In this document: in pieces, positions 140-41,001 of the stretch | How the letters are laid out: the number at the start of each line of letters is the position of its first letter | Numbering within the stretch: position 1 is the stretch's first letter | Origin: Hydrogenophaga intermedia | GTDB taxonomy: Bacteria > Pseudomonadota > Gammaproteobacteria > Burkholderiales > Burkholderiaceae_C | NCBI RefSeq assembly: GCF_023715105.1 | Contig: NZ_JAMBNO010000003.1 | Span: 124,001-188,000 of the forward strand | Direction of reading: 5' to 3' | DNA: 64,000 nt | Translations under genes and position numbers: made by a program | Notes under the pieces: model-generated | What the model saw: only the letters and a program-made list of their open reading frames with translations | What the model was told of the DNA's origin: nothing | The model's database searches: none

Positions 140-156
140 CTAACTAGTGTTAGACT
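140..156 (+). promoter_or_regulatory. Conserved operator/promoter element, site 1
   Basis: The sequence CTAACTAGTGTTAGACT contains inverted arms CTAAC and GTTAG separated by four bases, the form expected for a TetR-like dimer. The same 17-base pattern (CTAACnnnTGTTAGACT) recurs before the genes at 41029 and, with two changes, 37763, each time pointing at the gene. TAGACT could act as a -10 box; no good -35 is visible. It lies 57 bases before the badH-like start. Confidence 0.55.
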
Positions 157-212
157 GATGGCTTCCCCGGTGCAGATGCGCGGGACTCGCTTCTTGCTCA
201 CGAAAGGTGCTC

Positions 213-1007
213 ATGGATCTCGAACTGAAAGGCAAGTCGGTCATCGTGACCGGCGGCGGCTCGAACATAGGTCGTGCCATCGTCCTCGCATTCGCCGCCG
301 AAGGCGCGCACATCACCATCGGTGACATCGATACGGCGCAGGCGGAGAAGACCGCCGGATTCGCCACGAAGCTGGGCGCTGCGTCCGTGCAGGTGGTCAA
401 GACCGATGTCACGAACCTGCAGCAAGTCCAGGCCATGTTCCAGGCAGCCATGGACAAGCACGGCCGCGTGGATGTGTTGGTCAACAACGTGGGATGGGAC
501 AATCTGATGTTCTTCACCCAGACGACACCGGAGTTCTGGCGCAAGGTGATCGACATCAACTATGTCGGCGTGTTGAACTGCACGAAGGCCGCGCTGGACA
601 TCATGATCAAGCAGATTGGCGGAGCGATCGTCTCTATCAGCTCGGATGCCAGCCGCCAGGGCGAACCCCGGGAAGCGGTCTACGGGGGCGTGAAAGCCGC
701 GATCAACAGCTTCATGAAGACGATCGCCAAGGAGAACGGCCGCTATGGGATCCGCTGCAACGTCGTCTGCCCTGGGGTGACCATTCCCGAGAACGCGGAC
801 GAGGTGGGCGGCAACAGCATGTGGACGAACGCGGACAGCATGTTCACCCCCGAACAGCTCGAGAAGGTGACCAAGGCCCTTCCGCTGCGCAAGGTGGGGC
901 GGCCGCAGGACATCGCGAACGCGGTGGCTTTCCTCGCGTCGGGCAAGGCGGGCCATGTGACTGGCCAGGTCCTTTCCGTCTCCGGCGGCTACAGCATGAT
1001 TGGTTGA
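213..1007 (+). CDS. SDR, BadH-like 2-hydroxycyclohexanecarboxyl-CoA dehydrogenase
   Basis: A 264-residue classical short-chain dehydrogenase. The NAD-binding TGGGSNIG is at 13-20, NNVG at 91-94, and the catalytic set Ser144, Tyr157, Lys161 is intact. The ATG at 213 is preferred over an in-frame GTG at 207 because GAAAGG stands six bases before it. The gene directly precedes badI, and in Rhodopseudomonas palustris BadH makes the 2-keto substrate that BadI opens, so the likely reaction is NAD-dependent oxidation of a 2-hydroxycyclohexanecarboxyl-CoA. SDR substrate choice cannot be read from sequence, so the specific role rests on the neighbour. Confidence 0.75.
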   Translation: MDLELKGKSVIVTGGGSNIGRAIVLAFAAEGAHITIGDIDTAQAEKTAGFATKLGAASVQVVKTDVTNLQQVQAMFQAAMDKHGRVDVLVNNVGWDNLMFFTQTTPEFWRKVIDINYVGVLNCTKAALDIMIKQIGGAIVSISSDASRQGEPREAVYGGVKAAINSFMKTIAKENGRYGIRCNVVCPGVTIPENADEVGGNSMWTNADSMFTPEQLEKVTKALPLRKVGRPQDIANAVAFLASGKAGHVTGQVLSVSGGYSMIG

Positions 1008-1017
1008 GGAGCCTGCG

Positions 1018-1821
1018 ATGAGCTATACCGACATCATCTACGAAGAGCGCGAACAGATTGCCACCATTGCCATCAACCGGCCGGACGTGATGAACGCCTT
1101 TCGCGGCCAGACTGTCGAGGAACTGCTGGCAGCCATGCTGAAGGCGGGATGGGACCGGAACATCGCCGCCATCGTTCTCACCGGCACCGGCGACCGGGCG
1201 TTCTGCACCGGTGGCGACCAGTCGGCCCATGCCGGGCAGTACGACGGCCGCGGCACGGCCGGTCTGCCGATCGAGGAACTCCACAGCGTGATCCGCGACG
1301 TACCCAAGCCGGTGATCGCGCGCGTCCAGGGCTACGCGATCGGCGGCGGCAACGTGCTGGCCACCCTGTGCGACATGACCATTGCCTCCGAGAAGGCGGT
1401 CTTCGGGCAGGTCGGGCCGAAGGTGGGCTCCGTCGATCCCGGCTGGGGCACCGCCTACCTTGCCGCGGTGGTGGGCGAGAAGAAGGCGCGCGAGATCTGG
1501 TACATGTGCCGCCGCTACAGCGCGCAGGAGGCGCTCGCGATGGGGCTGTGCAATGTGGTGGTGCCGCACGACCAGCTCGACGCCGAGGTGGCGAAGTGGG
1601 GCCGTGAGATCGTCGAGAAGAGTCCCACCGCGCTGGCAATTGCCAAGCGGTCATTCAATGCGTCTACCGAACACATCCGCGGCATCGGCAGCCTCGGCAT
1701 GCAGGCCCTGAGCCTCTACTACGACACCGACGAGTCGAAGGAGGGCGTGCGCGCGTTTCTCGAGAAGCGCAAGCCTGACTTCCGCAAGGTTCTCGCGGAG
1801 CGCAACGCAGCCAGGAAGTGA
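1018..1821 (+). CDS. badI: 2-ketocyclohexanecarboxyl-CoA hydrolase (ring-cleaving)
   Basis: A 267-residue crotonase-fold protein that closely matches what I recall of BadI from R. palustris over its whole length, with shared stretches such as DRAFCTGGDQS, YAIGGGNVLAT and YYDTDES. BadI hydrates and opens the 2-ketocyclohexane ring by a reverse Dieckmann reaction, giving pimeloyl-CoA. Ser138, Asp140 and Tyr235 fall at the positions reported as catalytic in BadI and in the related MenB. Oxyanion-hole glycines are in CTGGD (63-67) and IGGGN (108-112). The start follows GAGGAG and lies ten bases after the upstream stop, so it is co-transcribed with the badH-like gene. Product goes to beta-oxidation, which the genes at 28-37 kb could supply. 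Confidence 0.88.
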   Translation: MSYTDIIYEEREQIATIAINRPDVMNAFRGQTVEELLAAMLKAGWDRNIAAIVLTGTGDRAFCTGGDQSAHAGQYDGRGTAGLPIEELHSVIRDVPKPVIARVQGYAIGGGNVLATLCDMTIASEKAVFGQVGPKVGSVDPGWGTAYLAAVVGEKKAREIWYMCRRYSAQEALAMGLCNVVVPHDQLDAEVAKWGREIVEKSPTALAIAKRSFNASTEHIRGIGSLGMQALSLYYDTDESKEGVRAFLEKRKPDFRKVLAERNAARK

Positions 1822-1905
1822 TCGGCATCTGGCAGGGCCTACCGGCTCTGTGCATCAACTTCCGCCGCCGGGCCGGCGCACCAAACCACGACCCACATTC
1901 GCCGT

Positions 1906-1931
1906 CAGGCGTGACCTAGTGGTGATGCCTG
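1906..1931. terminator. Candidate bidirectional hairpin terminator
   Basis: CAGGCGTGACC and GGTGATGCCTG form an 11-bp stem with one mismatch and one G-U pair around a TAGT loop. It lies between the convergent badI and araC-type genes. No T-run follows, so termination strength is uncertain. Confidence 0.4.
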
Positions 1932-1959
1932 CAGTTGCCGGACGGCCTGCCGCCGCTAA

Positions 1960-2856
1960 CTAAGCCATCGCGAGGTGCCGCCGTGCCATTGTCCGGAACT
2001 CCGTCGGCCGTTGCTTCGTGTGTTTCTTGAAGAACCGGCCGAAGTAGGCCTCGTCCTCGAAGCCCAGTTCCCACGCAAGCTGCTTGATGCTGACGGAGGA
2101 ATACACGAGCTCCCGCTGCGCTTCGTGCAGCAGCCGTTCGTTGATGGCATCCAGCGGAGATATCCCGAGCACGTCCCGGCACAGGCGGCCGAGGTGGCCG
2201 ACGGAAACACCAAGCGCCTCCGCGTAGTGGGCCACGCTGCGTCGCGTGCGGAAGCGCTCGTCGACAAGCCGGCGGAAGTGTTCGATCTGGAGGGCCTTGC
2301 GCGAGCGCTGTTCGCTGGGCACCGCCGCGCCCTGACTGATGCGCGAAATCTGCACGAGCAGCGCTGCCAGCAAGGCCATGCCGCTGGCCACGTGGCCAGC
2401 CGTGCCATGGCGCGACTCGCGTTCGATGGCCTCGAACAGCGGCATTAGGTCGTCCGCGTAGGGGCTCCTGGCGTCGACGGGCATGACCCTGGGTGTCCGG
2501 ATGTGGGCCAGCAACGCCGGCGAAAGGGCTGCCACCAGAGATTCCAGCGACCGCTGTGGCGCGGTGATCACGGGGCCGTCGACATCGCTCGGGAATCGGA
2601 AGCCGTGCACCACCCCCGCCGGGACGATCACGACGCAGGGAGGCGATAGCCGCCAGCGCCGGTGGTCCATCAGGACCTCGCCGGTGGCGCTGCCTGCCAC
2701 GACGTACAGCAACTGCAGCAGCCCGTCGTGCACGTGCGGTTCGATCTCGAAGTCGTAGAGACTGGAGCGCTCGGGGATGTGTTCGATGTGGACGAAGTCG
2801 AGCCACGCCGGCGCGGAATCTGTGCCGTACAGGGCAAAGCGGGGGACCATTGACAT
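1960..2856 (-). CDS. AraC-family transcriptional regulator
   Basis: 298 residues: an N-terminal cupin-like sensor region (histidines in the first 70 residues, EPHVHDGLLQLLYVVAG) and a C-terminal AraC DNA-binding domain with two helix-turn-helix units (SVAHYAEALGVSVGHLGRLC, then SIKQLAWELGFEDEAYFGRFFKK). The arrangement resembles PobC/PobR-type activators of aromatic acid genes. It is divergent from the SDR/KstD/liv operon, whose coding region begins about 200 bases away, so it is the natural candidate to activate that operon in response to the imported acid. The effector is unknown. Confidence 0.85.
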   Translation of the reverse strand: MSMVPRFALYGTDSAPAWLDFVHIEHIPERSSLYDFEIEPHVHDGLLQLLYVVAGSATGEVLMDHRRWRLSPPCVVIVPAGVVHGFRFPSDVDGPVITAPQRSLESLVAALSPALLAHIRTPRVMPVDARSPYADDLMPLFEAIERESRHGTAGHVASGMALLAALLVQISRISQGAAVPSEQRSRKALQIEHFRRLVDERFRTRRSVAHYAEALGVSVGHLGRLCRDVLGISPLDAINERLLHEAQRELVYSSVSIKQLAWELGFEDEAYFGRFFKKHTKQRPTEFRTMARRHLAMA

Positions 2857-2949
2857 GCACGAATTGTCCGGTTATTCGCCGCCTTTGTCGATTGTGCGCT
2901 GCCCGCATGGCAACGACCATCCAGCCCCACGACAAAGGAGACGATTGCC

Positions 2950-6715: not shown

Positions 6716-6733
6716 ACACCACGGAGGAGACAC

Positions 6734-8589: not shown

Positions 8590-8599
8590 AAGGCATCCC

Positions 8600-9319: not shown

Positions 9320-10014
9320 AGTCTTTGCTGGAACTGGAACAGGTCGACGCGTTCTACGGCGCGGCGCACATCCTGCACAAGCTGGACCTGCGGGTAGGCG
9401 AGGGCGAGCGCGTCGCGCTGATCGGACGCAATGGCGTGGGTAAGACCACGGTAGTGAACACCGTGCTGGGGCTGGCCAGCATGCGCGGCGGCTCGGTGCG
9501 GATCGCGGGCAAACCGCTGCCGCGGCCGCGCACCTACATGGCAGCGCAGGAGGGTGTCGCGGTCGTGCCCCAGGGACGGCGCATCGTCGCCAACCTGACC
9601 GTGGAAGAAAACTTGCAGCTTGGCGCCGCCAACGGCCGCAAGGGTCCCTGGAACATCCCGGCCATCTACCAGCTGTTCCCGATCCTGCAGGAGCGGGCCC
9701 ACACGCCCGGCACCGCCCTTTCGGGCGGCCAGCAACAGATGCTGGCGGTCGGCCGGGCCCTGATGGCCAACCCGTCGCTGATCCTGCTGGACGAACCGAC
9801 TGAAGGCCTGGCCCCCGTCGTCGTCGACCAGCTCGCCGAGATATTCAACAGCGTGGCCGACCGCGGCACGGCGCTGCTGCTGATCGAACAGAACATGACC
9901 CTGGTCGCCCGCGTGGCGCACCGCTACTGCGCCATGGCCAAGGGCAGCGTAGTGGCCGAAGGCCGCGTGCATGAAGAAGGTCTCGACGCATTGCACCGCC
10001 ACGTGATGGTCTGA
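9316..10014 (+). CDS. livF: ABC transporter ATP-binding protein, LivF family
   Basis: 232 residues with Walker A GRNGVGKTT, signature LSGGQQQMLAVGRAL, Walker B LILLDEPTEGLAP and LLIEQNM. The short length and EGLAP after Walker B are typical of LivF. Second ATPase of the importer. Confidence 0.9.
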   Translation: MKSLLELEQVDAFYGAAHILHKLDLRVGEGERVALIGRNGVGKTTVVNTVLGLASMRGGSVRIAGKPLPRPRTYMAAQEGVAVVPQGRRIVANLTVEENLQLGAANGRKGPWNIPAIYQLFPILQERAHTPGTALSGGQQQMLAVGRALMANPSLILLDEPTEGLAPVVVDQLAEIFNSVADRGTALLLIEQNMTLVARVAHRYCAMAKGSVVAEGRVHEEGLDALHRHVMV

Positions 10015-10076
10015 ACCGTCGTATCGCAACTGCCCGGCCTGGCCGGGTTTCCCAACCCCAAAGAGGAGACATTCCC

Positions 10077-11267: not shown

Positions 11268-11277
11268 AGAAGCGCCG

Positions 11278-11825: not shown

Positions 11826-11831
11826 GCCTCC

Positions 11832-28269: not shown

Positions 28270-28281
28270 TGAGGTCTCCGT

Positions 28282-29448
28282 TCAATACGACCGCGGCAGC
28301 CCCATGACATGCTCGGCGATGTAGTTCAGCACCATTTCGCGGTTCAACGGCGCCGTGCGCAACAGCCGCACCAGACCGTACAGGTCGTAGATCCCATATT
28401 CCTTGGTGAAGCCATTTCCCCCGTGTGTCTGGATCGCTGCATCGACGGCGTGGATGCCGGCCTCGGCCCCGGCGTACTTGGCGATGTTGGCGAACTCGCC
28501 TGCCGGCAGGCCCTGGTCGAAGGCCCACGCCGCCTTCAGTGCCATCAGGGAGGCCATCTCGATCTCGCTGCGTGCGATTGCCAGCGGATGCTGCACGCCC
28601 TGGTAGGCGCCGATGGGCGTCTTGTTGAACAGCTTGCGGTCGTTGGCATACGCTACCGCTTTCTTGAGCGCGAAGCGGCCGATGCCGGTACACAGCCCCG
28701 ACAGGATGATGCGCTCCGGGTTGAGGGTGTCGAACAGGATGCCGAAGCCCTTGTCCACTTCACCCAGCACGTCGTCCTCGGTCAGCGCCACGTCGTCGAA
28801 GAACACCTGCCACTGCGTCTCGGGCACGGGGAACGCGACGGGGATCAACGTCATGCTGATGCCCTTCTTCTTCATGTCGACCATGAAGATGGTGAAGCCG
28901 TCGGTCTTCTTCTTCACGTCGGCCCGCGGCGTGGTGCGGGTGACCACCATGGCGTAGTCGGCCCGGTTGGCATCCGTGATGAACACCTTCTGTCCGCTCA
29001 GACGGAAGCTGCCTTTGCCGTCCGGCTTGGCCAGGGTGGTGATCTCCATCGAATTGGAACCCGCGTTCGGCTCGGTGATGGCGAAGCAGAACTTGATGTC
29101 GCCCGAGCAGCCGCCAGGCAGCAGCCGGCGCTTCATGTCTTCACTGGCGTGCTTGGCCAGCAGCCCCATCGTCATGGTCGGGCCCACGACGAGGTTCAGC
29201 AGGGGGATGCCGTTGTTCGCCAGCCCTTCCATGAACAGCAGCATCTCCGTCATGCCCTGTCCGGCGCCGCCGTACGCTTCAGGCACCATGATGCCCAGGA
29301 AGCCGTCGTCGGTGATCTGCTGGTACAGCTCCGCCGGCGGCTCGCTCTTGTCGGCATACGTCTTCCAGTATTTATGGTCGAACCGCTGTGACACGCGGTC
29401 GCCGTACTCGTAGACCATCCGTTGTTCCTGCGTGAGCGCGAAATCCAT
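28282..29448 (-). CDS. Acyl-CoA dehydrogenase, CaiA-like subgroup
   Basis: 388 residues. FCFAITEPNAGSNSMEI and KVFITDAN mark the FAD domain. The C-terminus ends TAPLNREMVLNYIAEHVMGLPRSY rather than with a YEGT motif, the same pattern as the protein encoded at 34534-35700 (SPQLILCFIAEKVLGLPKSY). These two form a separate subgroup among the eight dehydrogenases in the window. GGAGAACAGC precedes the ATG. Confidence 0.85.
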   Translation of the reverse strand: MDFALTQEQRMVYEYGDRVSQRFDHKYWKTYADKSEPPAELYQQITDDGFLGIMVPEAYGGAGQGMTEMLLFMEGLANNGIPLLNLVVGPTMTMGLLAKHASEDMKRRLLPGGCSGDIKFCFAITEPNAGSNSMEITTLAKPDGKGSFRLSGQKVFITDANRADYAMVVTRTTPRADVKKKTDGFTIFMVDMKKKGISMTLIPVAFPVPETQWQVFFDDVALTEDDVLGEVDKGFGILFDTLNPERIILSGLCTGIGRFALKKAVAYANDRKLFNKTPIGAYQGVQHPLAIARSEIEMASLMALKAAWAFDQGLPAGEFANIAKYAGAEAGIHAVDAAIQTHGGNGFTKEYGIYDLYGLVRLLRTAPLNREMVLNYIAEHVMGLPRSY

Positions 29449-29484
29449 GCTGTTCTCCGGAAGCGGGACGATAGCGTCTGGGTG

Positions 29485-30288
29485 TCAGACTTTTGCCGAG
29501 GGGAAGACAGGCGCGCGCTTCTCGCGCACGGCGGCGACGCCTTCGGCCGCGTCTTCGCCGAGGAAGCAAAGCATCTCCATCGCCAGCGAGCTCTCGAAGG
29601 TCGGGCGCGCCATGTGCATCCAGCCGTTGAGCGAACGCTTGGTGAAGCGAATCGCCTGCTGGCTGCCCGCGGCCAGCTTGTCCGCCACCTCCATGGCCTT
29701 GTCCATCAGCTGTGCGCGCGGCACGCACAGGCTCACCAGCCCGATGCGCTCGGCTTCCTTGCCCGAGACGAAGTCGGCCGTCATCAGGTAGTACTTCGCC
29801 TTGGCCATGCCGCACAGCAAGGGCCAGAGGATTGCTGCGTGGTCGCCGGCGGCAACACCGAGCTTGACGTGGCCGTCGGTGATCTTGGCTTCTTCGGCCA
29901 TGATGCTGATGTCGGCCATCATGGCCACGGCCAGGCCGGCGCCGACGGCCACGCCGTTGATCGCGGAGATCACCGGTTTTTCACAGGCCATCACGTTGTA
30001 GACGATGTCCGATGCCTCGGTCATCACGTTATTGATGGTCTTGGCGTTTCCGACCATGCCGGTGATCCAGTTCAGGTCGCCCCCGGCCGAAAAGGCCTTG
30101 TCGCCGGCGCCGGTGATGACGGCCACCTTGGTCTTGGGGTCGTCATTGACCACGCCCCAGATCTTGGTCAGCTCCCAGTGCAGCCGGGCGTTGGTGGCGT
30201 TCATCACCTCCGGGCGGTTGATGGTGATCAGCAGCACGCCGTTGGGCTTGTGCTCGAACTGGAGGAACTGGAAGTCGGTGTAGTTCAT
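29485..30288 (-). CDS. Enoyl-CoA hydratase/isomerase family protein
   Basis: 267 residues of the crotonase fold. Oxyanion-hole glycines are in AFSAGGDL and GVAVGAGLA. The position of the first catalytic Glu of hydratases reads KLGVAAGD, which lacks an acidic pair, so an isomerase or hydrolase activity is as possible as hydration. AAGGA precedes the ATG at 30288; a second ATG at 30303 is also in frame. Confidence 0.8.
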
Positions 30289-30326
30289 GGTCGGGTCCTT
30301 CATGGAGTGGAGAAGACTGAGGCGGC

Positions 30327-31184
30327 TCAGCGCAGCGTGGCGCGGCCGTTGTTGAGCACGACGACGTCGCGTTCGACGACGCGTGCGCGGAAGAACGCGG
30401 CGCTGCAGTCGTTCCAGATTTCGGTACGGATCGTCTCGCCGGGGTAGACCGGCGACGAGAAGCGCGTTTCGATCGAGGCGAGGCGGGACGGATCGCCGTC
30501 GCACAGCGCCTGCGTCAGCGCCCAGCCGGCAATGCCATAGGTGGCCAGGCCGTGCAGGATGGGTCGCTCGAACCCGGCGGCGCGGGCGATCGCGGGTTCG
30601 GCATGCAGCGGGTTGTAATCGCCCGAGAGGCGGTAGATCAGCGCCAGTCCGGCGGCAGTCCTGCGTTCGACACTGCGATCCGGCGTGCGGGTGGGCAGTT
30701 CGTGCACCGGTTTGACCGGTCCAGACGGCCCGCCGAAGCCGCCGTCGGCGCGGCAGAAGGTGGTCGACCCCAGGGTGGCCAGCAACTCGCCGCTGGCGGC
30801 GTCGGTGACCGTGCGCTCGGTGTAGAGCAGCGCACCCTTGCCCCGGCCCTTGTCGACGATGCCGGTGACCCTCGTGCGGCCGACGACCTCACCTTCGGGA
30901 GCAGGGTGCCGGTGGATGATCAGGCTCTGTTCGCCGTGGACCAGGCGCACGGCGTCGACGCCTGTTGCGGGGTCCTTGAGCCACATGCCCGGGTAGCCGA
31001 GAACGACCGGCAGGGTCGCAAGGGCCACGAGGTCCTTCTCGTAGACGTGCCGCAGCTCGCCCTCGTCGGTCGGGTCGGCGCCGAGGCCGAGCCCGAGAGC
31101 GTAGAGCATGGTGTCGCGCCGGGTGTAGCGATGGCGCACGTCCTCGAAGGGCCATGCCATCAGCTTGTCGTAGTTGATCGCCAC
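30327..31184 (-). CDS. MaoC-family double hot-dog enoyl-CoA hydratase
   Basis: 285 residues with two hot-dog domains, like the hydratase-2 part of eukaryotic MFE-2. The C-terminal domain carries SGDYNPLHAEPAIARAAGF and ILHG with catalytic Asp and His. GTG start with GAGGG eleven bases before it, nine bases after the SDR stop. Together with the SDR at 31194 it recreates the hydratase-2/(3R)-dehydrogenase pair of peroxisomal MFE-2. Confidence 0.85.
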   Translation of the reverse strand: MAINYDKLMAWPFEDVRHRYTRRDTMLYALGLGLGADPTDEGELRHVYEKDLVALATLPVVLGYPGMWLKDPATGVDAVRLVHGEQSLIIHRHPAPEGEVVGRTRVTGIVDKGRGKGALLYTERTVTDAASGELLATLGSTTFCRADGGFGGPSGPVKPVHELPTRTPDRSVERRTAAGLALIYRLSGDYNPLHAEPAIARAAGFERPILHGLATYGIAGWALTQALCDGDPSRLASIETRFSSPVYPGETIRTEIWNDCSAAFFRARVVERDVVVLNNGRATLR

Positions 31185-31193
31185 CGTGTGCCC

Positions 31194-32114
31194 TCAGACC
31201 GGGTCCCAGGAGAAGACGATGTTCGAGGTCTCCAGCGGGAAGAAGCTTGGCTTCATGGCCGGCAGCACGCGCTCCGCGATCGTCTCGGGCGTCCAGCCCT
31301 CCGCGGTGTGCATGCCGCGCACCGGCCGCGGCTGGCTCATCAGGAAGATCTCGTTGCCCCGGACGGCGAAGATCTGCGCGGTCACGTCGGCCGCCGCGTC
31401 GCTCGCCAGGAACGCGGCCACGGGTGCGATCTGCGCCGTATCCAACTTCTGCAGCTTGGCGACCCGCGCCTGCTGCTCGGGGGTTTCGGTGGGGATCGAG
31501 CCGATCATGCGGCTCCAGGCGAAGGGCGAGATGCAGTTGGAACGCACGTTGTAGCGCTTCATGTCGCCGGCGATCGAGCGCGAAAGGGCCACGATGCCGA
31601 GCTTGGCGGCGCCATAGTTGGCCTGCCCGAGGTTGCCGATCAGGCCCGAAGTCGACGTCATGTGCACGTAGGCGCCCGACTGCTGCGTCTTGAAATGCGG
31701 CGCTGCGGCCCGCGACACATAGAAGGTGCCGTGCAGGTGCACGTCGATCACAGCATGCCACTCCTCCACCGACATGTTGAAGAACAGGCGGTCGCGCAGG
31801 ATGCCGGCGTTGTTGACGACGATGTCGATGCGGCCGAAGTTGTCTGCGGCACACTGGATGATCCGGTTCGCGGCCTTCCAGTCGGACACGCTGTCGGTGC
31901 TGAGCACCGCTTCGCCGCCGCGGGTCCTGATCTCTTCCACCACCTCCTGACCAGGGCTCGCGTCGTTGCCTTCGCCGCTGACCGACGCGCCGATGTCGTT
32001 GACGACGATCCGGGCGCCCTGTGCAGACATCTGCAGTGCGATGTCGCGCCCGATGCCGCGGCCCGAACCCGTGATCACAGCGACTTTGCCTTCCAGCATC
32101 GTGCCCTTGTGCAT
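31194..32114 (-). CDS. SDR, MFE-2-type (3R)-hydroxyacyl-CoA dehydrogenase
   Basis: 306 residues. TGSGRGIGRDIA, VVNDIGASVSGEG (the extended loop seen in HSD17B4-like proteins), NNAGILRDRLFFNM and the Ser/YGAAK catalytic set are intact. The insertion after the second strand and the neighbouring MaoC gene indicate oxidation of (3R)-hydroxyacyl-CoA. Confidence 0.83.
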   Translation of the reverse strand: MHKGTMLEGKVAVITGSGRGIGRDIALQMSAQGARIVVNDIGASVSGEGNDASPGQEVVEEIRTRGGEAVLSTDSVSDWKAANRIIQCAADNFGRIDIVVNNAGILRDRLFFNMSVEEWHAVIDVHLHGTFYVSRAAAPHFKTQQSGAYVHMTSTSGLIGNLGQANYGAAKLGIVALSRSIAGDMKRYNVRSNCISPFAWSRMIGSIPTETPEQQARVAKLQKLDTAQIAPVAAFLASDAAADVTAQIFAVRGNEIFLMSQPRPVRGMHTAEGWTPETIAERVLPAMKPSFFPLETSNIVFSWDPV

Positions 32115-32163
32115 GGTGTGAAACTCCTCGATTTGAAGAAATGTGGATGTGGCGATGGCGGCG

Positions 32164-33318
32164 TCAGGACGGCAGCTGCAGCACGGCGCCGGCGAGGATG
32201 TTGCGCTGGATCTCGTTGCTGCCGCCGTAGATGGTGGCCGGTCGTGCGTTGTAGAACGTGGTCAGCACGTCGATGGAGCTGCCGTCCACGTCGATATCGC
32301 CCGGCATGCCGCCGCTCGCGCCGGCGATCTCCACCAGCAGGTTGGCCAGGCGTGAATACGTTTCGGTGGCGAACAGCTTGAGCATCGATACGTCAGGACC
32401 CAGCGTCTCGCCCCGCTTGACCTGCTCCACGAATCGCGCGTAGAGCGTGCCCAGGTCCGCCACGTCCAGCGCGAGCTGCGTGTAGCGGTCCGTGAACACG
32501 GGGTCCTCGGCGAGGCCCAGCAGATCCGCAGCCTCGCGCACCCGCGCCAGGGCGTACTGGCTCTGCTTGGGGCTGCCCAGGAAGATGCGCTCGAAGCTGA
32601 GCAGCGCCTTGGCGATCGTCCAGCCCTTGTTCAGCTCGCCCACGCGCTGGTTGCGCGGGACGCGGACATTGTCGAAGAAGACTTCACAGAAGTCCTCGTT
32701 GCCGGCGATGTTGCGGATCGGCCGGACGGTGATGCCCGGCGTACGCATGTCGGCCAGCAGGAAGCTGATGCCCTCCTGCTTCTTGGCGGCCTTGTCGGTG
32801 CGCACCAGCAGGAAGATGTGTGTGGCATCCTGCGCCAGCGTGGTCCAGGTTTTCTGCCCGTTGACAATGAAGTCGTCCCCGTCTTCCACCGCTTCGGTTC
32901 GCAGGCTGGCCAGGTCCGACCCGGAGTCCGGCTCCGAATAGCCCTGGCACCAGATGTCATCGCACGAGAGGATGCGCGGCAGGTAGTGGGCACGCTGCGC
33001 TTCCGTGCCGTGCTGGATGAGCAACGGACCGACCATGGTCACGCCCATGTCCGGTGCCCTCGCAACGCCATGCCGTTCCTGTTCCTCGATGAAGGCGATC
33101 AGCTTCTCGGGCGCGAGTCCCATGCCGCCGTAGCGCACCGGCCAGCTCGGTGCCAGCCACCCCCTGGCTGAGAGCTGGAGGGTCCAGTCGCGAATCTCGG
33201 CCCAGCGCAGGCGACGCTTGGGGTAGCGCAATGACTCGGGGTAATGCTGCTCGAAGAAGGCGCGCACCAGGGCGCGAAAATCGTCCGTACTGAGCGCGTT
33301 CCAGTCCGTGGTGTTCAT
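32164..33318 (-). CDS. Acyl-CoA dehydrogenase, large-subunit type (PimC/FadE-like)
   Basis: 384 residues. CQGYSEPDSGSDLASL, KTWTTLAQDATH and the C-terminal YGGSNEIQRNILA mark the FAD-binding subunit of heterotetrameric dehydrogenases such as PimCD of R. palustris and ChsE1/E2 of mycobacteria. The Glu of YEGT is Gly here, as in that group. The start overlaps the stop of the partner gene by four bases. Pimeloyl-CoA, product of BadI, is a plausible substrate. Confidence 0.82.
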   Translation of the reverse strand: MNTTDWNALSTDDFRALVRAFFEQHYPESLRYPKRRLRWAEIRDWTLQLSARGWLAPSWPVRYGGMGLAPEKLIAFIEEQERHGVARAPDMGVTMVGPLLIQHGTEAQRAHYLPRILSCDDIWCQGYSEPDSGSDLASLRTEAVEDGDDFIVNGQKTWTTLAQDATHIFLLVRTDKAAKKQEGISFLLADMRTPGITVRPIRNIAGNEDFCEVFFDNVRVPRNQRVGELNKGWTIAKALLSFERIFLGSPKQSQYALARVREAADLLGLAEDPVFTDRYTQLALDVADLGTLYARFVEQVKRGETLGPDVSMLKLFATETYSRLANLLVEIAGASGGMPGDIDVDGSSIDVLTTFYNARPATIYGGSNEIQRNILAGAVLQLPS

Positions 33319-34502
33319 GCGGCAGACTCCCGATGCCCTGCAGTGTTGCGGCTCAATTGGGCGAAGCGCCTGCGCTGGATCGCTGCGTTGCCGAGCCACG
33401 CGGAGAGCACCAGCGCGCGCTGGACATAAAGCCCGAGGTTGCACTCGTCGGTGAAGCCGATGGCACCGTGCATCTGCACTGACTCACGTGCGATCACAAG
33501 CGCGGCTTCCGAGCAGCGTGCCTTCACCCGTGCGCCCAGCAGGGCGCGTTCCATGCCCGTGCACCCGCGGTCGAGTTCGGCGATGGCGTGGCCGACGAGC
33601 GCGCCGCTCAGCTCCTGCTGGATCAGCATGTCGACGGCGCGATGCTGGAGGGCCTGGAAGCTGCCTATCGGCTTGCCGAACTGCTTGCGCGTGCGCAGGT
33701 AGTCCAGCGTGGTGGCGACCATCTGTCTGCATATGGTCGCCAGTTCGACGCCGGCCAGCACCAGCGCCTCGTCGTACGCTGCGGCCAGTGCGGCGCCGGC
33801 GGCTGGACCGATGGCCAGCAAGTGGTCCGTGGGGACGGCGATTTCGTGGAACTGCAGGCGCGTCGCGAACGTGCCGTCGGCCAGCCGCTGGACACTCGTC
33901 ACGAGGCCCTCGGACCCTGCAGGCAGCCACACCAGCGCCGTGCCTTCCGAAGACGACGCGCTGACGATGTAGCCGGTGGCGGCCGCGCCGGGACGGACGT
34001 GGCGCTTGCCGCCGCGCAGGACCAGATGGTCGCTCTCCCGGGCGCAGATCGCGGCCGGCTCGGCGAGGCAGCCCCGGTGGTCGAAGCTGACGGCTCCGGT
34101 GGCATCCTCCTGCCAGGCGACAGCGGGCAGCGCACGGCCGGCGGCGACGTCGGCGAGCAGCGCCCGTGCGGTCGGATGGCCGCCGCAGCCCTGCAGGAGC
34201 CTCCCCGCGAACACCAGCACCGGGACGAGCGGCTCGGGTGCGACCTGCGCGGCCAGCGCGGCGGCCACTTCGGCCATCTCGGCGAAGCCTTGTGCGTAAC
34301 CGCCGGCGGACTCGGGCACCAGCAGCCCGGTCCAGCCCTGCGCCGCCAGCGAGTTCCAGAACTGCATGTCGAAACCCGGTGCTTCGGCGCGCAGCGCACG
34401 CGCGCGTGCCGGGGGCGACTCCTTGGCGCTGAAGGCAAGGGCGCTGGAGCGCAGCATCTGCAATTGCTGCAGTCGGTCTGGATCGGCGAGGGCGGCGGAC
34501 AT
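33315..34502 (-). CDS. Acyl-CoA dehydrogenase, partner subunit (PimD/FadE-like)
   Basis: 395 residues, weakly conserved in the FAD-binding middle region (AVAWQEDATGAVSFDHRG in place of the usual TEP.AGSD) but with a normal C-terminal domain (TRKQFGKPIGSFQALQH, VQMHGAIGFTDECNLGLY). This asymmetry is typical of the second subunit in alpha2beta2 dehydrogenases. ATGA overlap with 32164-33318 supports equal production. Confidence 0.82.
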   Translation of the reverse strand: MSAALADPDRLQQLQMLRSSALAFSAKESPPARARALRAEAPGFDMQFWNSLAAQGWTGLLVPESAGGYAQGFAEMAEVAAALAAQVAPEPLVPVLVFAGRLLQGCGGHPTARALLADVAAGRALPAVAWQEDATGAVSFDHRGCLAEPAAICARESDHLVLRGGKRHVRPGAAATGYIVSASSSEGTALVWLPAGSEGLVTSVQRLADGTFATRLQFHEIAVPTDHLLAIGPAAGAALAAAYDEALVLAGVELATICRQMVATTLDYLRTRKQFGKPIGSFQALQHRAVDMLIQQELSGALVGHAIAELDRGCTGMERALLGARVKARCSEAALVIARESVQMHGAIGFTDECNLGLYVQRALVLSAWLGNAAIQRRRFAQLSRNTAGHRESAA

Positions 34503-34533
34503 GGGTTGGGAAATCAGTGTCGGGATGAAGGGA

Positions 34534-35700
34534 TCAATAGGACTTGGGCAGGCCCAGCACCTTCTCGGCGATGAAGCACAGGATCAGCTGCGGGCTGATC
34601 GGCGCCACGCGGGGGATCAGCATTTCGCGCAGGTAACGCTCCACCTGGTATTCCTTCGCGTAGCCGAAGCCGCCCAGGGTGGCCATGGCCCGCTGGCAGG
34701 CATTGAAGCCAGCCTCGGCCGCCATGTACTTGGCCGCATTGGCATCGGGGCCGCAGTTCAGGTTCCGGTCGTACTTCCAGGCACCGCGCATGGCCATCAG
34801 CCAGGCCGCCTCGAGCTCCATCCACGACTGCGCCAGGGGGTGCTGGATGGCCTGGTTCTGGCCGATGGGGCGGTCGAAGACGATGCGCTCGTTCGCATAC
34901 TTCACGGCCCGCTCCAGCGCTGCCTGCCCGAGACCCACCGCCTCCCCGGCAATCAGAATGCGCTCGGGGTTCATGCCGTGCAGGATGTACTCGAAGCCAC
35001 GTCCTTCCTCGCCGATGCGGTCCTCCACCGGTACCCGGAGCCCGTCGATGAAGAGCTGGTTGGAATCGACCGCCTTGCGCCCCATCTTCTCGATCTCGCG
35101 CACCTCGACGCACCGCCGGTCCAGGTCGGTGTAGAACAGGCTCAGGCCCAGTGTGGGCTTGGGACAATCCTCGGGCGGCGTGGTGCGCGCCAGGATCAGC
35201 ATCTTCGTGGCCACCTGCGCGGTCGAGATCCAGACCTTCTGCCCCGTCAGGATGTAGTGGTCGCCCCGGCGCTCGGCGCGCGTCTTGAGCCTGGTCGTGT
35301 TCAGGCCGGTGTTGGGTTCCGTGACGGCGAAGCAAGCCTTGTCCTTGCCGGCGATCAGCGGTGGCAGCATGCGGCGCTTCTGCGCGTCGCTGCCGAACAC
35401 CACCACGGGCTGCAGCCCGAAGATGTTCATGTGCACCGAAGAGGCCCCGGACAGCCCGGCGCCGGAGCGCGCGATCGCCGTCATCATCACCGTCGCCTCG
35501 GTAATGCCCATGCCGCTGCCGCCGTATTCCTGCGGCATGCAGATGCCCAGCCAGCCGCCGGCCGCGAGGGCGTTGTACAGCTCGTGCGGGAAGCCGCCCT
35601 CCCGGTCTCGCTGCAGCCAGTAATCGTCACCGAACTCCGCGCAGATGCGGCCGATGGCCTCGCGGATGGTTTCGTGTTCGCGGTTTTCGCTGAAGTCCAT
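34534..35700 (-). CDS. Acyl-CoA dehydrogenase, CaiA-like subgroup
   Basis: 388 residues. CFAVTEPNTGLNTTRL and KVWISTAQ define the FAD domain, LGGFGYAKEYQVERYLREM the C-terminal domain. It ends IAEKVLGLPKSY like the protein at 28282-29448. GAGGGAC precedes the ATG, 11 bases after the FadH-like stop. Confidence 0.85.
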   Translation of the reverse strand: MDFSENREHETIREAIGRICAEFGDDYWLQRDREGGFPHELYNALAAGGWLGICMPQEYGGSGMGITEATVMMTAIARSGAGLSGASSVHMNIFGLQPVVVFGSDAQKRRMLPPLIAGKDKACFAVTEPNTGLNTTRLKTRAERRGDHYILTGQKVWISTAQVATKMLILARTTPPEDCPKPTLGLSLFYTDLDRRCVEVREIEKMGRKAVDSNQLFIDGLRVPVEDRIGEEGRGFEYILHGMNPERILIAGEAVGLGQAALERAVKYANERIVFDRPIGQNQAIQHPLAQSWMELEAAWLMAMRGAWKYDRNLNCGPDANAAKYMAAEAGFNACQRAMATLGGFGYAKEYQVERYLREMLIPRVAPISPQLILCFIAEKVLGLPKSY

Positions 35701-35711
35701 GGCCGGGTCCC

Positions 35712-37763
35712 TCAGAGAGCCATGGCCAGGCGTGTGCCCTGGTCGATCGCCCGCAGTGCGTCCAGCTCACTCGCCAGTTCCGCCCCGCCAATCACGTCGG
35801 GTTGGATGCCGACGCCGCGCAGCTCCACGGCCAGTGCGTTCTCGGACTCCTGCCCGGCGCAGATCACCACCGTGTCGACCTCGAGCAGCCGGGCCTCGCC
35901 GTTCACGCGCAGGTGCAGCCCGGCATCGTCGATTCGCTCGTAGCTGCAGCCCGACAGCGTCTGCAGTCCCCGCTGCTCGAGCCGGGCCCGCAAGGCCCAG
36001 CCGGTGGACAGGCCCAGCGTGCGCCCGGGCTTCTCCGGCCGGCGCTGCAGCAGGGTAACGCTGCGCAGGGACCTTGGCGGCTGCGGCGGCTGCAGGGCGC
36101 CGGGCACCTCGGGCGCCGTCGTGACGCCCCACTCGGTCAGGAAGGCGCTGACTTCATCTTCTGCGGCAGGGGGCGAGCCCCCGTCCGCGACCTCGTGCAG
36201 CAGGTATTCGGCCACGTCGAAGCCGATGCCGCCGGCACCGATGACGGCAACGCGGCGGCCTGCCTGCCTGCGCCCCGAGAGCAGCTCCGCGTAGCCGACC
36301 ACCTTCGGGTGGTCCAGCCCCTGGATCCCGGGCCTGCGCGCCCGCACCCCGGTGGCGACCACGATGCGGTCGAACTCCGCCGCGGCCAGCTCGCCTGCAG
36401 CCGGCCGCTGCCCCAGGCGCACTTGCACGCCTTCCTGATCGAGGCGGGTGCCGAAGTAGCGCACCAGCTCGTGGAATTCTTCCTTGCCCGGCACGGCCCG
36501 CGCGAGGTTCAACTGGCCGCCGATGTGGGGCGCGGCTTCGTACAGAGTGACCTGGTGGCCCCGCTCGGCGGCTGTCACCGCGCATGCCAGCCCGGCGGCG
36601 CCGCCGCCAACCACGGCGATGCGGCGTCGCGCCGTCGGGGCCGGCATCTGCATGAACTCCAGTTCCCGCCCGGCACGCGGGTTGACGAGGCAGGAGGCCG
36701 GGCGGTTGGTGAAGATGAAGTCCAGGCAGGCCTGGTTGCAGGCGATGCAGGTGTTGATGGTGTCGGGGCGGCCTGCTGCGGCCTTGCGCACGAAATCGGG
36801 GTCGGCAAGGAAAGGCCGGGCCATGGACACCATGTCGGCGTCTCCCGCAGCCAGGATGTCTTCGGCCACCTCGGGCACGTTGATGCGGTTGGAGATGACC
36901 AGGGGAATGCCGATGGCGCGTTTGATGCGCGCTGCGGCAAAGCGGAAGGCCGCGCGCGGTACCAGATAGGCGATGGTGGGAACCTTCGCCTCGTGCCAGC
37001 CGAAGCCCGTGTTGATGACGTCGGCTCCCGCAGCCTCGATGGCCTGCGCCAGTGCGATGACCTCATGGGCCGGGGCACCGCCTTCGACCAGGTCCAGTGC
37101 CGACAGCCGGTACATGATCAGGGCGCGGGCACCCAGGCGTTCCCGCGTGCGGCGCACGATCTCCACCGGCAGGCGGTGCCGGTTGGCCATGCTGCCGCCG
37201 AACTCGTCGGTGCGGTCGTTGCAGCGGGTGGTCGTGAACTGGTTGATGAAATACCCTTCCGAGCCCATCACCTCCACGCCGTCGAAGCCGGCGCGCATTG
37301 CCAGCTCGGCGCAATTCACGAAGTCCTCGATGGTCCGCCAGACTTCCGCGGTCCCGAGGGTGCGCGGCACGCGACGGTTGATCGGCGACGGAATGCTGGA
37401 GGCGCCCACGAGTTGCGCGGTCTTGCCATAGCGTCCGGTGTGCAGCACCTGCAGCAGGATCTTGCCCCCTTCGGCATGCACCGCCTGCGGTATCGGACGC
37501 AGCGCGTCGGCTTGTTCGGGCGTGATGAGCTGCGGCCCATGGTCGTCCAGCAGGGCTTCAAGGTTCATCGCGAACCCGCCGGTGACGATCAGTCCCGCGC
37601 CGCCGCGCGCGCGTTCGGCGTAGAACGCGGCCAGCCGTTCGACACCGCGGTCGAGGTTGTCCAGCCCCGTGTGCATTGATCCCATCAGCGTGCGGTTGCG
37701 CAGGGTGTGAGCACCGAGCGCGATCGGCGACAGCAAGGTGGGGAAAGCAGGGGGCGCATTCAT
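35712..37763 (-). CDS. FadH-like NADH:flavin oxidoreductase / 2,4-dienoyl-CoA reductase
   Basis: 683 residues in three parts: an old-yellow-enzyme FMN barrel (about 1-330), a 4Fe-4S site CIACNQACLDFIFTNRPAS with a further Cys (about 335-360), and an FAD/NAD(P) domain (IAVVGGGAAGLACAVTAAERG about 375). This is the build of bacterial 2,4-dienoyl-CoA reductase and trimethylamine dehydrogenase relatives. It may reduce unsaturated ring or chain CoA esters. The ATG at 37763 lacks a ribosome site and is close to the conserved element at 37772-37788, so the mRNA may be leaderless. First gene of the twelve-gene operon. Confidence 0.82.
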   Translation of the reverse strand: MNAPPAFPTLLSPIALGAHTLRNRTLMGSMHTGLDNLDRGVERLAAFYAERARGGAGLIVTGGFAMNLEALLDDHGPQLITPEQADALRPIPQAVHAEGGKILLQVLHTGRYGKTAQLVGASSIPSPINRRVPRTLGTAEVWRTIEDFVNCAELAMRAGFDGVEVMGSEGYFINQFTTTRCNDRTDEFGGSMANRHRLPVEIVRRTRERLGARALIMYRLSALDLVEGGAPAHEVIALAQAIEAAGADVINTGFGWHEAKVPTIAYLVPRAAFRFAAARIKRAIGIPLVISNRINVPEVAEDILAAGDADMVSMARPFLADPDFVRKAAAGRPDTINTCIACNQACLDFIFTNRPASCLVNPRAGRELEFMQMPAPTARRRIAVVGGGAAGLACAVTAAERGHQVTLYEAAPHIGGQLNLARAVPGKEEFHELVRYFGTRLDQEGVQVRLGQRPAAGELAAAEFDRIVVATGVRARRPGIQGLDHPKVVGYAELLSGRRQAGRRVAVIGAGGIGFDVAEYLLHEVADGGSPPAAEDEVSAFLTEWGVTTAPEVPGALQPPQPPRSLRSVTLLQRRPEKPGRTLGLSTGWALRARLEQRGLQTLSGCSYERIDDAGLHLRVNGEARLLEVDTVVICAGQESENALAVELRGVGIQPDVIGGAELASELDALRAIDQGTRLAMAL

Positions 37764-37771
37764 GGAGGTCA

Positions 37772-37788
37772 AGTCTAACTAACGTATG
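37772..37788 (-). promoter_or_regulatory. Conserved operator/promoter element, site 3
   Basis: On the minus strand this reads CATACGTTAGTTAGACT, agreeing with CTAACnnnTGTTAGACT at 11 of 14 fixed positions and pointing at the FadH-like gene. A shifted reading CTAACGTATGTTCG on the plus strand also gives near-symmetric arms. It lies in the divergent region with the gene at 37885. Confidence 0.45.
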
Positions 37789-37884
37789 TTCGATGATATA
37801 GTCGATCCCGGCTTTTGTGAAATTTCTCTGCGCGAGGGTTTCCCCTCTCGCGCGATTCCGCCCCTCCGAATCGCAAAATCGCCC

Positions 37885-38586
37885 ATGCCCCAAGTCGTAC
37901 CGCCAAATGGCCACCCGGCCGAGCTCTATCTTCAACCCGGCCGCTTCGTCGACAGCAACCATCCGGCGGTGCAGGCCTTCGCCCGCGCCCATGCTGACGC
38001 CTCGATGAAGCCGCGCGACATCGCCGTGAAGTTGTACTACGCGGTGCGCGATGGCTTCCGCTACGACCCCTATCACTTCGACATGTCCCAGGCGGGGCTC
38101 AAGGCGAGCCAGGTGGTGGAGCAAGGGCGCGGCTTCTGCGTGCCCAAGGCGACTTTACTGGCCGCTGCGGCACGCGTGTTCGGCGTGCCCGCACGCCTGG
38201 GCTTTGCCGACGTCCGCAACCATCTCACAAGCCCGCGGCTGCGCGAGATGATGAACACCGACGTGTTCGCCTTTCATGGCTATGCCGAACTGATGATTGA
38301 CGGCCGGTGGGTCAAGGCGACGCCCGCGTTCAACCTGAGCCTGTGCGAGAAGGCTGGCGTGAAGCCGCTGGAATTTGACGGCAGCTCCGATTCCATTTTC
38401 CATGAGTTCGACCGGCAGGGCCGGCGCCACATGGAGTACATCCGGGACCGCGGCACCTATGCCGACGTGCCGCGCGAGGAGATGCTGCAGGCCTTCGAGC
38501 ACCTGTACCCCAACTACCGGGACTGGATGCAGAACACCGGCACAGCCGACTTCGAGGGCGAAGTCAGGCCACGGCGCGCGGACTGA
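37885..38586 (+). CDS. Transglutaminase-like domain protein
   Basis: 233 residues from the ATG at 37885; the frame stays open to an ATG at 37786, but the first 33 codons look unlike the family. The papain-like triad is visible as GRGFCVPKATLLAAAAR (Cys), FHGYAELMIDGRWVKATPAFN (His, Asp). Bacterial members are proteases, peptide amidases or amide-forming enzymes. It precedes an acyl-CoA ligase by 58 bases, so a role in hydrolysing a conjugated acid before activation is possible but unproved. Confidence 0.75.
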   Translation: MPQVVPPNGHPAELYLQPGRFVDSNHPAVQAFARAHADASMKPRDIAVKLYYAVRDGFRYDPYHFDMSQAGLKASQVVEQGRGFCVPKATLLAAAARVFGVPARLGFADVRNHLTSPRLREMMNTDVFAFHGYAELMIDGRWVKATPAFNLSLCEKAGVKPLEFDGSSDSIFHEFDRQGRRHMEYIRDRGTYADVPREEMLQAFEHLYPNYRDWMQNTGTADFEGEVRPRRAD

Positions 38587-38644
38587 AGGCCATTCCGGCG
38601 CATGCATCGAGCCGGCTCCTCCCCAGACCAAGGAGAACGTCTAC

Positions 38645-40162: not shown

Positions 40163-40173
40163 CGCTCGCGCTG

Positions 40174-40962
40174 TCAACCGGGTGTGCTGAGCCCGCCATT
40201 GACGCTCAGGGTCTGGCCGGTGATGGCATCCGACTCCGGGCCCGCGAAGAACGCCGCAGCCTGCGCGATGTCGGCGCAATGCACCGGAAAGAGCATTCGC
40301 TTTCGGAGGTTGTCGAGCATGCCCTGGCCGTGCGCGCCGGCGAGCGCAGCCGATCCGCCACCCCAACGCGGCTCGGCGTCCCAGATGTAGCTCATCGCCA
40401 CAGCGTTGATGCGGATGCCGTCGCGCCCGAGTTCGCGCGCCAGGACGCGGCACATCTGCATCATGCCCCCCGTGGCGCCCCCGATGAACGACTCGCCCAC
40501 GGTGGCCACCCTGCCGGCGTCGGTGCCGATGGCCACGATCTTGCCGCGACCCCGGCTGCGCATGGCGCGGGCCGCCGCCTGGATCGCGTACGCGCGCGTG
40601 AGCCAGTGAGAGCGGATATAGGTCTCGAAGTCCGGTCCCTCCATCTCCAGGAACAGCTTGAACGCGAGCGAGTCGCTGCTGGCGCCGGCGCCGCTGGCCA
40701 CCAGCACGTCGAGCCGGCCGTGGCGTTGCACGATGCGGTCAACCATGGCCTGCACCGCAGCGCGGTCGGTCAGGTCGGCGCACTCGAACTCCGCCCGCCC
40801 GCCCGCCGCCTGGATCTCCTCGACGACTGCGGCGCCGCTGTCGGTGCTGCGGCCGTTGACAACAACGGTGGCTCCGCGGCGGGCCAGTTCGTTCGCCGCG
40901 GCGCGCCCGATGTACGCCGTGGCGCCGGTGACGAGCGCGATCTGGTCCTGAAGGGTTTTCAC
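40174..40962 (-). CDS. SDR-like protein lacking the catalytic Tyr/Lys
   Basis: 262 residues with a normal Rossmann start (TGATAYIGRAAANELARRG) and C-terminus (GQTLSVNGG). The NNAG segment is SGAGASS, and where SDRs have Ser...YxxxK the sequence is GTDAGRVATVGESFIGGATGG, with Ile and Thr aligned to Tyr and Lys. Classical dehydrogenase chemistry is therefore unlikely. It is divergent from the thiolase-like gene at 41029 across a conserved regulatory element and convergent with the atypical ligase. Confidence 0.8.
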   Translation of the reverse strand: MKTLQDQIALVTGATAYIGRAAANELARRGATVVVNGRSTDSGAAVVEEIQAAGGRAEFECADLTDRAAVQAMVDRIVQRHGRLDVLVASGAGASSDSLAFKLFLEMEGPDFETYIRSHWLTRAYAIQAAARAMRSRGRGKIVAIGTDAGRVATVGESFIGGATGGMMQMCRVLARELGRDGIRINAVAMSYIWDAEPRWGGGSAALAGAHGQGMLDNLRKRMLFPVHCADIAQAAAFFAGPESDAITGQTLSVNGGLSTPG

Positions 40963-40984
40963 GGCCGGGGCCTATCCTTTCAAC

Positions 40985-41001
40985 CTAACACTTGTTAGAC
41001 T
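40985..41001 (+). promoter_or_regulatory. Conserved operator/promoter element, site 2
   Basis: CTAACACTTGTTAGACT, identical to site 1 (140-156) at all 14 fixed positions of CTAACnnnTGTTAGACT, with TGGC two bases further on in both. It lies between the divergent SDR-like and thiolase-like genes, 27 bases before the latter start. Confidence 0.6.

Follow-up and report, generated by a model that had tools for sequence, protein, structure and literature searches.

A palindromic repeat ahead of catabolic genes

The 64,000-nucleotide stretch analysed here (the window) covers positions 124,001 to 188,000 of contig NZ_JAMBNO010000003.1 (C84) of Hydrogenophaga intermedia, whose genome was assembled into 4,651,607 bases in 150 contigs, C84 representing 6.1% of it. 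The window carries a short repeated element close to the start codons of a badH-like gene followed by badI, a FadH/OYE-like flavoenzyme gene and a thiolase-like gene (Table 1). A preliminary description of the window had read this element as a 17-bp TetR-type dimer site defining a regulon of these three targets. As it had stated, the copies at 140-156 (CTAACTAGTGTTAGACT) and 40985-41001 (CTAACACTTGTTAGACT) are identical at 14/14 fixed positions and both are followed by two bases and TGGC, the minus-strand copy at 37772-37788 (CATACGTTAGTTAGACT) matches at 11/14 positions, and start codons lie nearby (ATG at 213, 41029 and, on the minus strand, 37763). The third copy, though, fits better when shifted by 4 bp, to 37779-37792 of the minus strand (CGAACATACGTTAG, one mismatch in 10); the register at 37772-37788 is its overlapping second half-site.

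The conserved unit is a 14-bp palindrome, CTAAC-N4-GTTAG (CTAACN4GTTAG, 5-4-5). The bases 3' of it are loosely kept in relatives (A/G, T/C, A/T), and because this applies to the ACT tail, the 17-bp asymmetric reading was dropped in favour of the palindrome. With up to 3 mismatches, the 17-base pattern gave 7 matches in the window, whereas 100 dinucleotide shuffles averaged 0.62 and never exceeded 4. These matches represent only four places because a palindrome matches both strands. The repeat as first described therefore stands out from shuffled sequence, whereas its length and the register of its third copy had to be revised. A candidate extra site at 12966 had a score of 3.0 in the matrix scan described below, inside the shuffle background.

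Distribution in the genome

The 17-base pattern with up to 3 mismatches occurred 48 times in the genome, below its reversed control (125), and with up to 2 mismatches 7 times, always on C84. The palindrome CTAACNNNNGTTAG with at most 1 mismatch was found at 10 places, 9 of them on C84 (reversed-pattern control, 49 places); by our own arithmetic, the chance of at least 9 of 10 places falling in 6.1% of the genome is ~1e-10. As a control, the loci of the 19 TetR genes outside C84 (58,923 bases) were searched and contained 0 sites with up to 1 mismatch.

A symmetrised matrix was built from 104 unique sequences in the loci of relatives whose TetR protein is at least 40% identical to g030, the TetR protein introduced below; none of these proteins is identical to g030. 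At a threshold of 12.3, a level not reached in six second-order shuffles, the matrix found 18 positions on C84, which represent 15 sites (three positions being shifted registers) in 14 intergenic regions: 15427, 17485, 31946, 40415, 60727, 64219, 70680, 80098, 103410, 122759, 124140, 161779, 164985, 200022 and 200155. Site 15427 is the least certain because it lies 5' of a weak open reading frame (ORF). All 15 sites are intergenic, in an island whose intergenic share is 7.4% by our own gene calls, and all lie between 15.4 and 200.2 kb of C84, a ~185-kb acyl-CoA catabolic island, with none beyond 200.2 kb. Choosing the training sites by their core pattern biases the matrix towards that core, but not towards intergenic positions or towards the island. 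The window holds only three of the sites (140, 37779 and 40985), which rank fourth, second and first on C84.

By sequence matching, CTAACRNNYGTTAG thus occurs as a 14-bp palindrome in about 14 of the island's intergenic regions. The preliminary description had proposed a genome-wide scan and held that many copies at unrelated positions would speak against a regulon; such a scatter was not found in either the palindrome search or the independent matrix scan. Its three-target regulon is supported by the sequence in kind, but not in size, which is rather about 14 control regions.

A TetR gene with its own copy of the element

A search of the genome with PF00440 revealed 20 TetR genes, exactly one of them on C84 and none within the window, as the preliminary description had noticed. 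The C84 gene, g030 (C84:39705-40334, minus strand), lies 84 kb before the window and encodes a protein of 209 aa with a clear TetR_N helix-turn-helix (66.9 bits; cut-off 24). The intergenic region between g030 and the divergent gene g031 contains CTAACGTCTGTTCG (1 mismatch) upstream of both genes, by 80 bp for g030 and by 124 bp for g031, so that the TetR gene with its own copy, which had been suggested as something to look for, is found here. The product of g031 resembles cyclohexanecarboxyl-CoA dehydrogenase (TIGR03207, 534 bits, under the cut-off of 575), and g031 is followed by genes for an enoyl-CoA hydratase, a carboxyltransferase, a biotin carboxylase and an HMGL-like protein. Together with the confinement to the island, this gene arrangement supports the earlier view of a TetR-type dimer site that defines a regulon.

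Against NCBIfam, g030 scored below the cut-off of every one of the 21 models matched. Its AlphaFold2 model has 9 helices and a pLDDT (predicted local distance difference test) score of 89.3, and its best matches are TetR structures, with KstR2, DarR, PfmR, AibR with isovaleryl-CoA and FadR among the nearest folds. Since nearest folds include proteins with CoA-thioester effectors, a CoA-thioester is a likely inducer of g030 as judged from the model.

Conservation in relatives

The best 80 of 162 candidate loci around g030 relatives (1.41 Mb) contained 126 sites with up to 1 mismatch, 61 of them exact, compared with 33 (1 exact) for the reversed pattern and 3-9 (0 exact) for five Markov shuffles. 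Only 1 of the 126 sites lay deep within an aligned ORF. The proportion of loci with a site followed TetR identity: 39/39 at 65% or more, 20/25 at 40-65% and 7/16 below 40%. A site was counted as preceding a gene when a homologue of a C84 gene started -20 to 300 bp behind it. By this measure, and with a 65% identity minimum, 19 relatives' loci contain the badH orthologue (g110; 78-91% identical) and 18 of them have a site upstream of it, as does a congener (L170). At the same identity level, sites precede the g031 dehydrogenase gene in 20/20 loci and the ABC transporter gene g022 in 13/20; the OYE gene g143 (56-65% identical) is preceded by a site in 8/10 loci. For tetR itself, the counts are 37 of 72 loci at any identity and 19 of 39 at 65% or more. 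Eleven further loci, mostly Roseobacter-type, have a site 5' of a short-chain dehydrogenase/reductase (SDR) gene only 40-44% identical to g110 and were excluded from the badH count. From the badH and OYE counts, two of the three window sites are conserved 5' of the same genes elsewhere. The thiolase gene g147 was found in 0 of the 80 loci, which leaves operator 3 outside the support from conservation.

In Polaromonas sp. JS666, the TetR gene (71% identity) is on plasmid 2 between a badH-like SDR gene and genes for MaoC and electron-transfer flavoprotein-quinone oxidoreductase (ETF-QO). The 30.6-kb stretch contains three sites with up to 1 mismatch: two are exact, one 5' of the ABC operon and one 5' of an aldehyde dehydrogenase gene, and the third, with 1 mismatch, lies 52 bp before the SDR gene.

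Two groups of distant relatives were also observed. In four Roseobacter-type loci (L106, L110, L114 and L116, near position 10000), the TetR relative is a frame of 439-481 aa with an exact operator upstream, and in L106 and L110 it contains two TetR copies in tandem. Mce3R is a double-TetR protein as well (406 aa, PDB 9b7y). In three metagenome-assembled genomes (MAGs) of Acidimicrobiia/Actinomycetota (L125, L126 and L127), the TetR protein is 32-34% identical and an exact CTAACGTTTGTTAG lies within ~75 bp upstream; carboxylase-like genes adjoin it in L125 and L126.

Presence and absence in the genus and the order

Among 67 genomes of the genus, six were scored as TetR-positive, our own and five with 76-78% identity; a 39% homologue in G181 was scored as absent. 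All six have exact sites (4, 3, 3, 4, 3 and 3), compared with 4 of the 61 TetR-negative genomes (1-2 sites each; Fisher p = 2.1e-6), and badI-tetR neighbourhoods were seen in the five congeners. As far as pattern matching goes, within the genus the predicted operator is thus found almost only where this TetR occurs. In an order panel of 150 genomes, the two with a TetR of at least 71% identity both have exact sites (4 and 1), and a genome with a 42% homologue (G143) has 0.

Eight other congeners have a BadI-like match (64-74%) without this TetR. Only one of them (G202) holds exact sites, on a contig other than that of its BadI matches, and no exact operator was found around BadI in the six of the eight that were examined. 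Two of these six (G011 and G003) have a bad-ali-like cluster with an adjacent MarR-type gene, of the family to which BadR belongs, and lack both this TetR and the operator; their MarR proteins are 84% identical to each other. No relative of the G011-type MarR was found in the other four BadI stretches.

Promoters and mode of action

The hexamer TAGACT occurs at all three window operators, overlapping the right arm of operators 1 and 3; at operator 2 it lies at 37772-37777, as an alternative to the TATCAT of the promoter-like sequence there. A two-hexamer scan of 37600-41200 gave only this one promoter (TTCACA-17-TATCAT, minus strand; mean in shuffles 0.2), and no two-hexamer promoter was found at operator 1 (scan of 1-600) or operator 3 (scan of 37600-41200). 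Since TATCAT ends directly before operator 2, this operator would cover the transcription start and not the spacer. TAGACT is treated as no more than a candidate -10 element of all three promoters, given the preference of the scan for TATCAT at operator 2 and its empty result at operators 1 and 3.

Similar hexamers stand beside other C84 operators: TATAAT (6/6) at 17485, TATAGT at 70680 and 161779, and TAGAAT at 122759. When hexamers touching the core were excluded and the better of the two sides was scored, the match to the -10 consensus averaged 3.93/6 over 14 sites (15427 was left out); random intergenic island positions treated alike gave 2.58 (sd 0.20), and 0 of 2000 draws reached 3.93. 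With either -10 element, the operator lies inside the core promoter, an arrangement in favour of steric repression. From such positions, within core promoters or abutting them, the likely mode of action is predicted to be repression by exclusion of RNA polymerase. An overlapping half-site, GTTAGTTAG, is seen at the tetR promoters of L063-L078 in 16/16 loci, and window 37775-37792 shows a like arrangement. Two dimers may bind at the tetR and OYE promoters, as suggested by half-sites that overlap with a 4-bp offset.

Genes of the predicted regulon

The features of the window are given in Table 1. The preliminary description had named a badH-like ring-opening target. BadI passes its NCBIfam cut-off, whereas the badH-like protein remains below that of BadH. 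Genes g142-g136 probably belong to the same operon as the FadH/OYE-like gene. Outside the window, the island encodes two carboxylase sets (partly recognized by eye) and an AtuA protein (500 bits); its annotation covers part of its proteins. As substrate of the island, a carboxylic acid of alicyclic or terpenoid type is probable. Alicyclic ring cleavage combined with removal of isoprenoid-type branches suggests a cyclic terpenoid or naphthenic acid, and cyclohexanecarboxylate-like, terpenoid-acid and naphthenic-acid substrates each fit the island.

Table 1. Predicted operators, promoter elements and genes in the window
Feature	Position	Strand	Evidence and remarks
Predicted operator 1, CTAACTAGTGTTAG	140..153	+	5' of badH-badI; matrix score 24.5
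Candidate -10 TAGACT over right arm of operator 1	151..156	+	4/6 vs TATAAT
badH-like SDR gene g110 (2-hydroxycyclohexanecarboxyl-CoA dehydrogenase-like), first operon gene	213..1007	+	TIGR03206, 210.5 bits, below cut-off 431.2
badI, 2-ketocyclohexanecarboxyl-CoA hydrolase (ring opening)	1018..1821	+	TIGR03210, 474.6 bits, above cut-off 467.6
AraC-family regulator g112, cupin-type sensor domain	1960..2850		Pfam; between badI and next operon; possible second local regulator
Closely packed genes g142-g136 (with SDR, enoyl-CoA hydratase)	28282..35700	-	Gene calls; g139 and g137 by Pfam
FadH/OYE-family flavoenzyme-like gene g143, head of minus-strand run	35712..37763	-	TIGR03997, 419.9 bits, below cut-off 793
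Predicted operator 2, CGAACATACGTTAG, 1 mismatch	37779..37792	-	5' of FadH/OYE-like gene; second register 37775-37788; matrix scores 25.4 / 15.0
Promoter-like TTCACA-17-TATCAT	37793..37821	-	10/12 matches; -10 ends directly before operator 2
Transglutaminase-core gene, divergent from operator 2	37969..38586	+	PF01841, 59 bits; possibly co-controlled
Divergent SDR gene sharing operator 3	40174..40962	-	PF13561, 128.5 bits
Predicted operator 3, CTAACACTTGTTAG	40985..40998	+	6-2-6 palindrome between divergent SDR gene and thiolase operon; matrix score 28.4, top on C84
Candidate -10 TAGACT over right arm of operator 3	40996..41001	+	Hexamer match
Thiolase/lipid-transfer-protein-like gene g147	41029..42198	+	NF004811, 483 bits, above cut-off 421
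ChsH2-type OB-fold partner of thiolase-like protein	42214..42615	+	PF01796, 86.3 bits; PF12172, 61.3 bits
Acyl-CoA dehydrogenase-like gene, same run as thiolase-like gene	42628..43860	+	Profile match

Contamination of the assembly as the origin of C84 is disfavoured. The genome's only atpA match is on C84 and is 85-92% identical to 9 of the 11 congeners searched; of the remaining congeners, G008 and G009, one yielded a 39-base fragment and the other no match. Since this TetR is missing from 61 of the 67 genus genomes, yet atpA is on C84, the contig probably belongs to this genome, and the island was probably acquired. Three other features of the contig were noted. A serine-recombinase-like gene (by eye; C84:10419-11948) is present in a lower-GC stretch near the left end of the island and is a possible integration gene. 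A run of 7,500 N bases, possibly a gap, appears to lie at ~240-250 kb of C84, as placed by a dip in GC content. An aromatic-type module at window 51740-58264 (amidohydrolase, LigB, Rieske/LigXa oxygenase and TctC receptor), near a GntR-family gene, contains 0 operators of the kind described here.

Comparison with known regulators

PaaR (TTHA0973) of Thermus thermophilus HB8 is a TetR repressor of phenylacetate genes with the operator 5'-CNAACGNNCGTTNG-3', and a selection experiment gave AACnAACGTTnGTT (PMC6651687). Judged from operator and family, our system resembles it in a similar palindrome, in the TetR family and in acyl-CoA catabolic targets, but the targets of PaaR are the paa genes. 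The consensus sequences overlap, but the sixth base of each half-site is A, G or T in our sites, not always G as in PaaR CNAACGNNCGTTNG.

BadR, a MarR repressor, controls the bad-ali genes of Rhodopseudomonas palustris and Aromatoleum sp. CIB through the operator CAAN4TTG and the effector cyclohexanecarboxyl-CoA (CHC-CoA); TetR-like genes are mentioned for Gram-positive bad-ali clusters (PMC9795900). Both BadR and the regulator proposed here would control the same badH-badI ring-opening step of cyclohexanecarboxylate, but by a MarR protein with CAAN4TTG in one case and a TetR protein with CTAACN4GTTAG in the other. The strict BadR site CAATNNATTG occurs 0 times in the window, where CAAN4TTG occurs 5 times (fewer than the 7.45 expected) and never before badH, and no homologue of the BadR-like MarR of G011 (PF12802) was found on C84 at E 1e-3, other MarR types not being searched. 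Control of badHI by BadR was rejected on these grounds. The strict site CAATN2ATTG does not separate the two groups of congeners, occurring 0 times in the G011 and G003 stretches, once in G202 and twice in the TetR-bearing G160.

The top fold match of the g030 model is KstR2 (4w97, TM score 0.74-0.79, 24% identity). KstR and KstR2 exert TetR-type control of cholesterol use in mycobacteria (PMC3068626), but g030 has only 32.4 bits against the KstR equivalog NF033703, whose cut-off is 280. AibR (isovaleryl-CoA; 5k7h/5k7z) and Bacillus FadR (acyl-CoA; 3whc) are near folds with CoA-thioester effectors; they differ in having ~20% identity to g030 and in controlling other target genes. AtuR and LiuQ, which are TetR regulators of genes for acyclic terpenes and for branched-chain amino acids, are likened here by island gene content, namely the AtuA protein and the dehydrogenase-hydratase-carboxylase-lyase run adjoining tetR. 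AtuR reportedly binds at two 13-bp inverted repeats. Mycobacterial BkaR has a different 16-bp core (PMC3920632). No description of this TetR, or of CTAACN4GTTAG as its operator, was found in the literature searched, which was incomplete for subscription papers. Judged from sequence, g030 and its palindrome are very probably a new example of a familiar TetR switch, distinct from BadR.

Weighing the explanations

We consider it highly probable that the element is the operator of the TetR repressor g030, controlling a catabolic island for ring acids and branched acids. The island does encode other regulators that might read the palindrome and make the TetR a bystander: the AraC-family g112 and the GntR-family g155 (50342-51025), both by Pfam, and by eye the IclR-like g067, which starts 239 bp from site 80098, and the LysR-like g102. 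This is improbable, however, since the operator tracks the TetR gene across genomes and gene orders, including the badI-tetR neighbourhoods of congeners, and precedes tetR itself in about half of the loci; a 5-4-5 palindrome is also typical of TetR dimers. It is likewise unlikely, if slightly less so, that g030 binds these sites and activates. A few TetR-family proteins act as activators, good -35 hexamers are absent at operators 1 and 3 in the two-hexamer scan, and one NCBIfam model name among the search results is that of the activator FasR. The operators, however, lie in or against the -10 region, not upstream of -35, and most studied TetR proteins are repressors (PMC3511530), which counts against activation.

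We give almost no weight to the motif being a promoter element or chance, in which an inverted repeat happened to form at a TAGACT -10. Each of the three window copies is overlapped or adjoined by TAGACT, but the sites are intergenic and confined to one contig, and shuffles of the relatives' loci contain no exact site, as against the 61 found; the equal conservation of both arms is no independent proof because both were used to pick the sites. A mobile or structural repeat dispersed over the island would account for the confinement to it and is equally hard to credit, in that the sites share the palindrome alone, differ in the central 4 bases and the flanks, and occur once or twice per promoter region.

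Several observations nevertheless weigh against the reading of the element as the operator of a g030 repressor. Six of the 15 matrix sites carry 2 mismatches. No site at all is present in 5 of the 25 relatives' loci at 40-65% TetR identity and 9 of the 16 below 40%, 7 of 20 loci have none before g022, and 20 of the 39 relatives' tetR genes at 65% identity or more have none directly upstream. Most of the latter are in L079-L096, where, in the loci drawn out, tetR lies behind badHI and may be transcribed under the badH operator. The congeners cannot be counted as independent, since G170, G173 and G176 appear near-identical, and G173 and G193 each have one exact site far from tetR. In the order panel, 27 of the 148 genomes without a 71% TetR hold 1-5 exact sites, mostly singly and 37 in all, so that the sequence is not exclusive to this regulator. 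Operators 1 and 3 have only 3/6 in the -10 count because their TAGACT overlaps the core. The promoters are not firmly placed, the sole two-hexamer match using a -10 other than TAGACT, and the choice of repression over activation therefore rests on position and family habit.

Proposed mechanism and implications

For a g030 repressor we propose the following scheme. The predicted TetR dimer on the palindrome would keep RNA polymerase off the core promoter. After the substrate enters and is activated, a CoA-thioester intermediate would bind the helical C-terminal domain of g030 and release the repressor. The operons would then be switched on together: badHI, the OYE/acyl-CoA run, the thiolase-ChsH2 module, the carboxylases, the ABC transporter and tetR.

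For an acyl-CoA island that is opaque in other respects, the proposal names a candidate regulator, its operator and some 14 target promoter regions; the island's unassigned dehydrogenases, thiolases and carboxylases would become one testable pathway. It would also represent a natural regulator swap, TetR versus a BadR-like MarR, over similar ring-opening genes in one genus, and the pair of regulator and operator is a candidate biosensor module for alicyclic or terpenoid acids, e.g., naphthenic acids. In a broader view, which we judge evenly balanced, g030 may belong to an undescribed TetR lineage that kept CTAACRNNYGTTAG as a near-unchanged operator for alicyclic and branched acyl-CoA catabolism from Betaproteobacteria via Roseobacters to Acidimicrobiia. 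Such a lineage would move among genomes and plasmids together with its operators, would have taken badHI from BadR within one genus, and would place operons up to 160 kb away under one switch.

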